From: Myrmaecium sp. VS I D KN 1
Taxonomy: Eukaryota > Ascomycota > Dothideomycetes > Valsariales > Valsariaceae
Assembly (NCBI GenBank): GCA_019775845.1
Contig: JADQAV010000018.1
Location: forward strand, 751,044 to 815,043
Length of the DNA stretch: 64,000 nucleotides
Direction: 5' to 3'
The translations under genes were made by a program, and so were the position numbers. The notes below the pieces were generated by a model, which did no database searches, was not told the origin of the DNA, and saw nothing but the letters and a program-made list of their open reading frames with translations. This document shows positions 14,552 to 18,831 of this stretch, piece after piece; the stretch's first letter is position 1; every line of letters starts with the position of its first letter.

Positions 14552-15423
14552 TGTGTCTTTCAACCGAAATGTGATCTATGTAATATGCAAAGCGCGCGCC
14601 GTATTAGCGGGGTAGGCGTGTCGCTGGATCCCGTCGCTCCTGGATGCGTGCGTGGGAAGTGGGTGATGCTGAGAGCCCGTCTCGGCAGGGTACGGCTGCA
14701 GGCAGTTCTGAGCTCGCAGATGGTACTGTAGCTGCTCGTCTCAGCGTATCGAACCAGGCGGCCGTCGGTCGAGTGAGAACCTTCGAATCTTGAGTGGGAC
14801 AGCGTATGTAGCGGAAGGAAAAACCAGGAGTCGTGCAATCGGGGCGGTTGTGATAAGATCACCGATAACAGCGGTAGTACACCTATACGTGGTTGCGGCA
14901 CGGTCGGGTACTAGCTTGGAGCAGCTCGTCCAGACCTGCACTTGGAGAGCGAAGAGGAAGTAAGGTGCTGGAAGCAGAGAACAAGCAAACGAGGAGAATG
15001 AGCGTAACGTCGGAGGGATGATCGGCGAGATGCACGTTGGCCAGCTGAGGCTGTCAGTGGTGAAGGACGTCGAGAGATGGGGGAAGGGCTTGGTATACCC
15101 CGGGCGGGACAGCTGGAAATTATGGCGCACCTCACCCTTTTTTGCTGATCCGGGATCCGGGTGGACTGAGGTGCCGTCGGCACCGCTACACGAGCCACAT
15201 TCAGCCTCACTGCCCCTGCGCCTCACGCGAAGTACGGATGCATATACGCGGCTTTAATCTATCCGAGTGAAGATGAGCAGCAATCAGCAATAGGGAAATA
15301 CTCACTGCAAGACCATCAGGTCGAGCAGAGCATATGGCACACAGATGGGATCCTTTCCACGACCGAGATACTGAATTATAATACACCATAGGAAGAGTAC
15401 AGCACAGTGATCGAGCACACCCA
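14552..15423. other. Intergenic region upstream of PIS1 and downstream of cnxABC
   Basis: The part next to 14552 is the presumed PIS1 promoter. The far part is the 3' flank of cnxABC. No gene is seen. Confidence 0.6.
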
Positions 15424-18209
15424 TCACGGCAACCAATCGCTGCCCTCGAACGCCCTCTCTGACTGGCTCCAAGCATCACCGCTCTCCTCCGCCACGCTCG
15501 CCTTGCCCTTTCCCTCCAACTTCTTCTCTTCTCTTTCCTTGCCCTTTCCCTCTATCTTCTTCTCCTCTCTTTCATTCGCCCTCCTAAATCTTCTTCCATG
15601 ACTATTTTCCCCTTGATCACCCTGGCCTGGGCCCATCCCCCCCTCAGGCTTCACTCTTGCCCGCTTCTTATGCAAAGGCTCCCAACCTATCTCCACCCAG
15701 TCCCCTCTAGTCCCACCCTGCTTCACAACGACCCTCGACGCTTCGATTCTCATGTGCTGGTCTAGCGCCTTGCACATATCATACACAGTCAGGCTCGCCA
15801 CCGTCGCTGCCGTCAACGCCTCCATCTCCACGCCCGTCTGCCCCGTGCACGAGATCGTGGCGTTGATCTCCACAGCCCCGTGGGGGCACTGCTTGTCCTC
15901 GCCCGGTGCAAGAACCGATACGTCCATATACATAGCTGTGATTGCGATGGGGTGACACAGCGGGATCAGATCCGGTGTCCGCTTGGCAGCCATGTAGCCT
16001 GCAATTCGGGCCGCCCCCAAAGCATCACCCTTCTTAAGGTCGTTAACGGCGATCAGCCGAGCCACCTTTGGGCTCGAGAAGACCACTCGAGAAACTGCGA
16101 CAGCTCGACGTGCCGTGACCGGCTTGTCGCTGATGGGAACCATGCGTGCAGTGCCCTGTGTCCCAACGTGGGAGAGCCTAGGAGCCTCGTTGGCAAGGCT
16201 TGGTCGACTTCTCAGGCCTGTCGACTTATCTGACAAAACAAGGGATTTCTTTGTCAGGTATCGGCCCCGACCCAGTTCGTGATGTATTGTGAATCCAGGG
16301 GGAGCTGTAGAGGTGTCTGCAGTCTCTGCATCAGCCGAGGGACTAATAGCAGATCTGCTTTCTGCAGCTTCCGAGGCCGATTCCTCACTGGGTTCCGAGG
16401 CGGTAGAGTATGCGCGTGCAAACGAGGTCCCAGTTGTCGTGGGTAAGAGCTGTGTGGGAATGGAGGCCCAGAAAGGCGTCCCTCCGCCTGTGGCGAAAGG
16501 GGACGGGCCACGGCGCGGTGAGGACCATAGCGACGTCAAGCGTGGCTTGCAAGCATCACCTATAATGTTTATTAGTGGACATTTGGCTCGCTCCGATTTG
16601 TGATCAGTCTAGTTGAACGGTTGCTGTAGATTGACTAGAGGTATATGCGTCGTGTAATTTCGTGAACTTCGTAAATCATGGCCGAATGCAATCATCCCAA
16701 ACCTGGAACGCCGCAAGAACTGAAGCCCTGAAGAAAGCTCTTCCGGACCAAAAAGGAACTCACCCACCTATCAAAATCATCGGCCGGTTTTTCATATTCT
16801 CAAGCTCTCCCATCCCGGCATGCTTCGCCTTCTTCTTCTTCACCGCGGCCCCGATGACCTCGAGCAACTCCCGTTCCCTTTCGGTGCAGCTCACCATCTT
16901 GTCCTTGTCAATCGAACCATCCTCCTTCGCTCTTGCCATTCGCTCGAATGCCTGGTCGTCAATCGGTTTCCCTTCATTGGACTCCCTTAAAAGATCCCTC
17001 AAGCTGACCTCCGCATTTCCAAATAAACACACCTTCAGATTCCCGTCGCTGGTGATTCTCAGCCGATTGCACGTCCCGCAGAAATTGTTGGTCATAGACG
17101 TGATGAACCCAATTCTTCCCTTGAACCCGGGCACCTCCCAAGTTTTACTCGTATCGTTCTTCTGTCCCTGTACCTGGCGCAGTACCGGATACTTCATCCG
17201 GATCAAGTCCAACATTTCTCGATACCCCAACATCTTGCTCTTGCTCCATTTATTCCCATCAAACGGCATGTACTCGATGAACCGAACCTCGACATCCTGG
17301 TCCCTCCCCATTTCCACAAAGGGCAGGATCTCCCGCTCATTGACACCCCTCATTACCACGCAGTTGATTTTCAGCTTGATCCCTGCACCCATCCGGTTCA
17401 TCTCCAAGATCCTGTCGATACTCTTCATAACCGCATCGAAGCCCTTCCTTCGCGTCATAATCTGGAATTGAAACGGGTCGAGGGTGTCCAGGCTCAAGTT
17501 GACTCCCGTAAGACCCGCCTCGACCATTTCATCCAGCTTGCGATGCAGCGAGATGCCGTTCGTCGTGAGGCAGAGCTCGCGCAAGCCCTTGGAGCGTAGG
17601 GAGCCGATGGAGCGCATGAGGGGCACTATGTCGCGGCGCACGGTGGGCTCGCCGCCCGTGAGACGGATCTTGTTGACGCCTTGAGAGACAAAGAGAGATG
17701 AGAGGTAGAAGATTTCCGGAGACGTGAGGAGGTGCAACGGCGGGGAGAGCTGAACGCCCTCTATCAGATGAGGTCAGCACGCGATTGCGATACTTCAGCG
17801 GCCAATCAGTGGGGAAACGCGGGTATGTAAAAAGAGATGCCATACCTTCAGGCATGCAGTACAGACATCGCAGATTGCATCGTTCCGTTACGCTGATCCT
17901 GAGGTAGTCGTGCTCACGATTGAAGTTGTCGGTTAAGAACTCGGAGAACGGTTTGGCCTGCTTGATGGCTTCTCTTCGACTACGCGGAGACAGAATGCTT
18001 TGCTGCTCAGGGGAAAGTGTAACAGGCACCTGGTCAGCTACGGAGGATTGAGCATAATCAACAGAGTCGTGTTCAATTGCAGCGTTCGTGGTGGTAACAG
18101 TCCTAATGATATGACGCTGTCCCGCAAAGCTTCGTAGGGTGCGGTTGCCACCTGCGAGCCAGCGGCGTAGAGACCGCTGGTACAGAAGCAGTGGCATCAC
18201 GAAGCCCAT
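15424..18209 (-). CDS. cnxABC: Molybdopterin precursor Z (cPMP) synthesis protein, MoaA-MoaC fusion
   Basis: This gene encodes both enzymes of the first molybdenum-cofactor step, turning GTP into cyclic pyranopterin monophosphate. Three exons (18209-17846, 17760-16768, 16559-15424) give 830 residues. An arginine-rich mitochondrial-type leader opens the protein. The radical-SAM cluster motif is C111-x3-C115-x2-C118, and the second cluster motif CGTC...C is near residues 375-395. The MoaC part starts about residue 581 (LSHVG) and contains [13 protein letters not shown] and the [12 protein letters not shown] motif. A 125-residue linker with an ARAYSTA presequence-like stretch joins them. Two overlapping donors at the exon 2 end would switch between the fusion and a MoaA ending ILIGG. 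The extreme C-terminus has a Glu/Lys repeat. Confidence 0.93.
16560..16767 (-). promoter_or_regulatory. cnxABC intron 2 with tandem alternative 5' splice sites
   Basis: Read on the minus strand the junction is ATA G GTGGGTGAGT. Donor 1 (GTGGGT, 16767) joins to the acceptor ending at 16560 and gives ATA GGT GAT, the in-frame fusion. Donor 2 (GTGAGT, 16763) is four bases further in and closer to consensus. With the same acceptor it gives ATA GGT GGG TGA, a stop after Gly-Gly. Keeping the intron gives the same Gly-Gly end. Confidence 0.6.
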
Positions 18210-18831
18210 TGAAGGCGAAACGGTCCCTCAACGAGTTCGTGTCTGTAAGGTTGTTCGCTGTACCGTTTGACGGGGGTAAGTGGTGAGCGGCAAGTACATA
18301 CGTCAGATGCGGAGCTTCAAGTTGTGAAGCATGCTTGGCGCATCCAAATCAGTACCCGGCAGGTACTAACCAGGAGTACAACAGTACAAGGCAAACTACT
18401 GACAGAAGACTACCTATTGTTGCTTGGAAAGGGCGATACCAGCTTTGGGAGTCTGAACTAGAAAGGCATGGCTCAAGGCAGGGCAAGGCCATACTCTTGG
18501 AAATTGCAACAGAAACTCCAGGCTTGACAAGGTACTAGTTTCTTCAAGCTCCCAATGAAATCAGACCATGCCGATTTACGAAAGGGAGGCGTGGGCACCA
18601 CTAATCGTGCAAGAGGGAAAAGTGAAGTTGGACGAGATCAGATCAATTGCATACGCATTTACAGAGCCAAACCCAACGCTTCAATCCATGCCCCAGTGAG
18701 CCCTCCTTGGTCATTCACCCATCAGCCGTTCATGTCTGGTAATCCCGCAGAATCGTTTACGCCGATGAAAACTGTCCGGATGATGCGTTGCCAGTGTCCG
18801 ATTTACTCGTCCCGTTGAGACATCTTTCCGT
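18210..18831. other. Intergenic region, cnxABC promoter and eS25 3' flank
   Basis: No gene is seen. Open frames are short and without recognisable features. Confidence 0.55.

Follow-up and report, generated by a model that had tools for sequence, protein, structure and literature searches.

Retention or splicing of a single intron in a fungal cnxABC gene is predicted to choose between MoaA and a MoaA–MoaC fusion

Can one fungal gene, through the fate of a single intron, supply both MoaA and MoaC activities as separate products? This question is raised by the minus strand at positions 18209–15424 of the window, i.e. the whole stretch of 64,000 nucleotides that we analysed, which holds a cnxABC/nit-7-like gene. 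MoaA and MoaC domains follow one another within one locus, in the order seen in nit-7/cnxABC (MOCS1-type) genes, and the gene is the fungal cnxABC (nit-7 in Neurospora crassa). All its features lie on the minus strand. The first coding exon (17846–18209, 364 coding bases) encodes an Arg-rich N-terminus, with a helical moment of 0.79 that is reached by only 7 of 2,000 shuffles, and the start of the radical-SAM domain (CNLRCLYC). Removal of the 85-nt intron 1 (17761–17845, GTATGG...TAG) joins MPE in-frame to EGVQLSP, while keeping it leaves a mere 226 aa; all three product predictions below were computed with this intron (17845–17761) removed. The second coding exon (16768–17760) encodes the remaining MoaA, with Pfam matches to Radical_SAM and Mob_synth_C in a 337-aa frame (16760–17773), and the third (15424–16559) encodes a linker, the MoaC domain (E 1.6e-46, with TIGR00581 above cut-off) and a charged low-complexity tail. 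This tail (15424–15660), which lies past the MoaC domain and closes the exon, contains near-repeats. Across the assembly that we searched (25.66 Mb in 66 contigs, of which the completeness is not established), there is a single locus each for Mob_synth_C, MoaC and MoaE. Since Mob_synth_C and MoaC each have one locus, a Gly-Gly MoaA has no source in this assembly but this gene.

The MoaA and MoaC parts are separated by intron 2 (16560–16767), which is 208 nt long when spliced from a first donor and 204 nt from a second. Its G+C content of 0.452 is lower than that of the exons on either side (0.541 and 0.586), and a branch-point-like ACTAAT (16571–16576) lies 17 nt before its end; it ends at 16560, with the MoaC exon following from 16559. 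Its 5' end falls within ATA GGT GGG TGA (16771–16760), where GGT GGG TGA (16760–16768) encodes the C-terminal Gly-Gly and stop of MoaA that are read if donor 1 is unused. Two GT donors, at 16767 and 16763, overlap here within ATAGGTGGGTGAGT (16771–16758); a third GT, at 16759, pairs weakly with U1. Donor 1 (GTGGGT, 16762–16767) splits the first Gly codon after its first base, and splicing from it turns ILIGG into ILIG-DACK, which removes the terminal Gly-Gly and opens an 830-aa MoaA–MoaC fusion. Splicing from donor 2 (GTGAGT, 16758–16763) keeps the Gly-Gly-stop and, just as retention of intron 2, yields a 454-aa MoaA ending in PMILIGG-stop. These two routes give an identical protein because the MoaC exon likewise begins with GTGA; the donor-2 junction falls in the second Gly codon and leaves the protein unchanged. 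Our recomputed translations therefore agree with the sequence-only reading that preceded this work in its coordinates and frames (donors 16767/16763 and acceptor 16560), in an open fusion from donor 1, and in a MoaA ending in ILIGG from donor 2 or from unspliced message. A structured RNA switch was considered and rejected, since Rfam gave no hit at gathering score within 15300–18400 and intron 2 folds no better than its shuffles (z 0.30, with 125 of 200 equally good).

The removable Gly-Gly-stop, a property shared with nit-7/cnxABC (MOCS1-type) genes, could in principle be a chance feature of the intron. A scan of genome_contigs returned 311 pattern matches, including 286 relatives, and we analysed the best 80 of these 286, bacterial loci that are mostly from Bacteroidota and were selected by similarity to the query. 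Among these best 80, the MoaA frame is closed in 80/80 and ends in IGG-stop in 80/80, with MITIGG in 57; the closest relative ends in NRPMIQIGG versus NRPMILIGG here, and the other 79 loci listed show 35–44% identity to the fungal MoaA. Chance is thus not the explanation for the Gly-Gly-stop: all of the best 80 relatives share this homologous terminus, and it is the ancestral MoaA end. The same stop codon is the homologous end of MoaA, yet intronic for the fusion. In MOCS1A, the double Gly is termed functionally important (PMC3602415). Two scans of viral_contigs (1 and 17 pattern matches) gave zero relatives by tblastn. The contig of the closest relative is filed as a Bacteroidota metagenome-assembled genome, and its MoaA (locus L002, 3001–3882) is 47% identical to residues 5–337 of the fungal protein; it may be misbinned or a genuine close relative. 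Conservation across fungi rests on one published gene, N. crassa nit-7.

In the account of nit-7 given in PMC7232280, the unspliced transcript yields NIT-7A, with its double glycine encoded by the intron, and splicing out of 1460–1696 yields NIT-7AB; a further variant without 1469–1696 was found by 5' RACE. From the strain table of that paper, in which NIT-7A corresponds to 1–1467 and its GFP fusion to 1–1464, we infer that the stop is at 1465–1467 and the two Gly codons at 1459–1464. The nit-7 intron starts after 1459 coding bases, in phase 1 (PMC7232280, Table 1 coordinates), and, as judged on these published coordinates, intron 2 matches it in position and phase. Growth of N. crassa on nitrate required NIT-7A plus NIT-7AB. 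Without the first donor (1461T>C), the fungus no longer grew significantly on nitrate; without the second (1470T>C), its nitrate growth stayed wild-type-like, with a smaller hyphal diameter. Nitrate induction raised the unspliced nit-7 RNA. NIT-7AB lost its A part following mitochondrial import, a fusion without the N-terminal signal remained cytosolic, and NIT-7B alone was not mitochondrial and did not complement (all PMC7232280).

What the two fungi have in common, on the published description, is one gene for MoaA and MoaC, a Gly-Gly-stop within an intron and a second donor directly 3' of the first. They differ in that the second donor lies at +9 (1469) and just past the stop in nit-7, whereas here it lies at +4 and overlaps the stop. 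In addition, the switch intron is 237 nt in nit-7 versus 208 nt here, nit-7 has one intron versus two, and nitrate reductase, a main user in N. crassa, was not seen in the present assembly. In human MOCS1, alternative splicing of exon 9 produces MOCS1A or MOCS1AB, the latter being cut to free MOCS1B (PMC9607355). This bears out the likeness already pointed out from the sequence, in that a splicing choice gives either a separate A protein or an AB fusion in human and is predicted to do so here, although MOCS1 has ten exons and other 5'-end variants, unlike the present gene. The cnxABC gene of Aspergillus nidulans is likewise a single gene with two catalytic domains, according to the title of Unkles et al. 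1997. The proposal that both activities come as separate products from one fungal gene keeps its core, a choice between MoaA and fusion that homology to nit-7 supports, while losing its novelty: the MoaA/fusion switch is already published for N. crassa nit-7. Among the listed papers that we read, the fungal switch is described in PMC7232280 alone.

The sequence-only reading had placed the switch in the four-base tandem itself, with GTGAGT as the stronger donor. For pairing with U1, we calculated −9.3 kcal/mol for donor 1 and −8.8 in register or −9.9 as best duplex for donor 2, with a full consensus at −11.6 and intron 1 of the same gene at −6.2 kcal/mol for reference. By this modelled pairing the two donors are about equal in strength, and a superiority of donor 2 is not secured because the energies are so near each other. 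The donor consensus itself includes a GT at +5/+6, and a four-base tandem alone is unremarkable. Such a GT occurs in 8/20 strict intron candidates and in 15/59 of a broader set, and GTGGGTGA is found 17 times in 528,000 strand-bases of the genome, 3 times followed by GT, the present site among them. These candidate sets, from a self-trained intron finder run on 264 kb, are noisy, and one run ended in 58 clusters that lacked a clear consensus. With the 59 candidates, donor 1 scores 3.05 and donor 2 3.37, for a set median of 3.42. Ahead of a CTRAY branch pattern and acceptor, GTGGGT was seen 12 times versus 7.3 expected and GTGAGT 14 versus 8.8, while a looser branch pattern gave 24 versus 28.2 and 31 versus 25.8, respectively; enrichment of the donor hexamers is weak and dependent on the branch pattern. 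The 20 strict candidates include GTGAGT 3 times and GTGGGT 0 times, in what is a poor sample since it misses the plausible 85-nt intron 1 of the same gene. We therefore based the donor comparison on U1 pairing.

In the 25.66-Mb assembly, profiles for Oxidored_molyb and Mo-co_dimer revealed no nitrate reductase. The one Oxidored_molyb locus, which is also the sole Mo-co_dimer locus (L103, 1459–2514; G000:C32:70458–71441), has a 351-aa frame in which the dimer match extends to residue 342, the stop coming nine residues past it. Its closest models are those of sulfite dehydrogenase, all under cut-off, and among the frames listed for this locus no further nitrate reductase domains were seen by eye; the locus is sulfite-oxidase-like. 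Searches for a nirB-type nitrite reductase hit four places, none above cut-off and all within profile positions 25–281 of 794, and there are two loci of the xanthine-dehydrogenase type. Nitrate assimilation thus looks absent from this assembly, an assembly gap being another possible cause, so that N. crassa's nitrate cue is probably inapplicable to this fungus.

The reading that we prefer, to which we give a probability of roughly 80%, is that of nit-7 as a whole: RNA that retains intron 2 would provide MoaA, and donor-1 splicing would provide a fusion that supplies MoaC. With intron 2 beginning inside the first Gly codon of the Gly-Gly-stop, an RNA that keeps it would encode the complete 454-aa MoaA with its ILIGG end, and the donor-1 RNA, rid of Gly-Gly and stop, would encode the 830-aa fusion, with an A part predicted to be inactive and a role as MoaC source. 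Since the frames allow both, the Gly-Gly-stop is ancestral and there is one MoaA and one MoaC locus, MoaA and fusion are probably both made. By analogy with N. crassa, both RNAs would be present, retention would be the main source of MoaA, and the fusion would be cut after import to free MoaC. Splicing from donor 2, if it occurs, would provide additional MoaA. A point against retention is that the long 3' part left behind could make such an RNA a target for decay. As for the release of MoaC, the linker contains a single RAYS, followed by T (16402–16416), which matches the mitochondrial presequence cleavage motif RX(Y/L/F)|(S/A)(S/T) as quoted in PMC4986872. The composition changes at this position, from 5 K/R and 1 D/E over 51 aa to 8 K/R and 11 D/E over 75 aa. 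RAYST is a lead, a candidate site for MoaC release. We rejected the idea that the linker carries an internal mitochondrial signal, its helical moment being ordinary (474 of 2,000 shuffles are equal or higher) and the N. crassa fusion minus its N-terminal signal being cytosolic.

An unlikely but distinct arrangement is a switch made by the overlapping donors themselves, with U1 occupying one or the other, nearly all RNA being spliced and donor choice setting the MoaA:fusion ratio. Their near-equal U1 pairing would suit such competition, the donor-2 junction within the second Gly codon produces the identical protein, and tandem GYNNGY sites that are regulated are those having two similar donors (PMC4267661). 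GYNNGY sites resemble the present one in having two GT donors spaced by four bases; here, however, the four-base shift leads to the ancestral protein end and no new tail. Most GYNNGY sites show no alternative splicing, which concerns 796/122,198 of them in human (0.65%) and 1027/124,066 in mouse (0.83%), and is mostly termed noise (PMC4267661). In addition, the +9 donor of N. crassa is dispensable for nitrate growth and its A protein comes from unspliced RNA, which leaves the four-base tandem unsupported as the toggle it was proposed to be. We likewise regard as doubtful the fuller version in which a stop set within equally strong donors lets U1 competition fix the ratio without any retention, for the sake of enzyme balance in a fungus that has seemingly lost nitrate assimilation.

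Far less plausible still, the fusion might be the sole product, the Gly-Gly-stop being a relic that survived because GTGGGT was required as a donor. Gene finders would indeed merge the exons into a single 830-aa frame, and intron 2 has an acceptor and the ACTAAT branch-like site. Against this, the G at +4 is demanded by the second Gly codon and not by the donor (GTGGGT 0 and GTGAGT 3 among the 20 strict candidates), a second MoaA locus was not found in the assembly, and a separate A protein is required in N. crassa. We give just as little credence to a bicistronic message, discussed for A. nidulans cnxABC according to PMC7232280, in which ribosomes would restart after the MoaA stop at a Met ahead of the MoaC domain. 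There is an in-frame ATG at 16143, where the MoaC domain starts (offset 416 in the exon), but restart at this ATG is unlikely since three out-of-frame ATGs precede it (offsets 3, 31 and 228) and NIT-7B alone is non-mitochondrial and non-complementing in N. crassa.

The nit-7-type reading, with intron 2 retained for MoaA and removed for the fusion, has consequences beyond this locus. A gene finder that reports the 830-aa fusion alone would overlook the active MoaA. Two features may be new here: a second donor that overlaps the stop, and the lack of nitrate reductase. Since the second donor has moved from +9 to +4, a comparison of fungi could directly probe selection on it: GTGGGTGAGT kept at synonymous positions across fungal cnxABC genes would favour donor 2, and a Gly-Gly-stop kept with a variable second donor would favour the nit-7 model. 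Our findings place the nit-7 arrangement, by sequence, in a second fungus, one with no nitrate reductase visible in its assembly. This suggests a switch that serves the supply of two separate enzymes and not nitrate alone.
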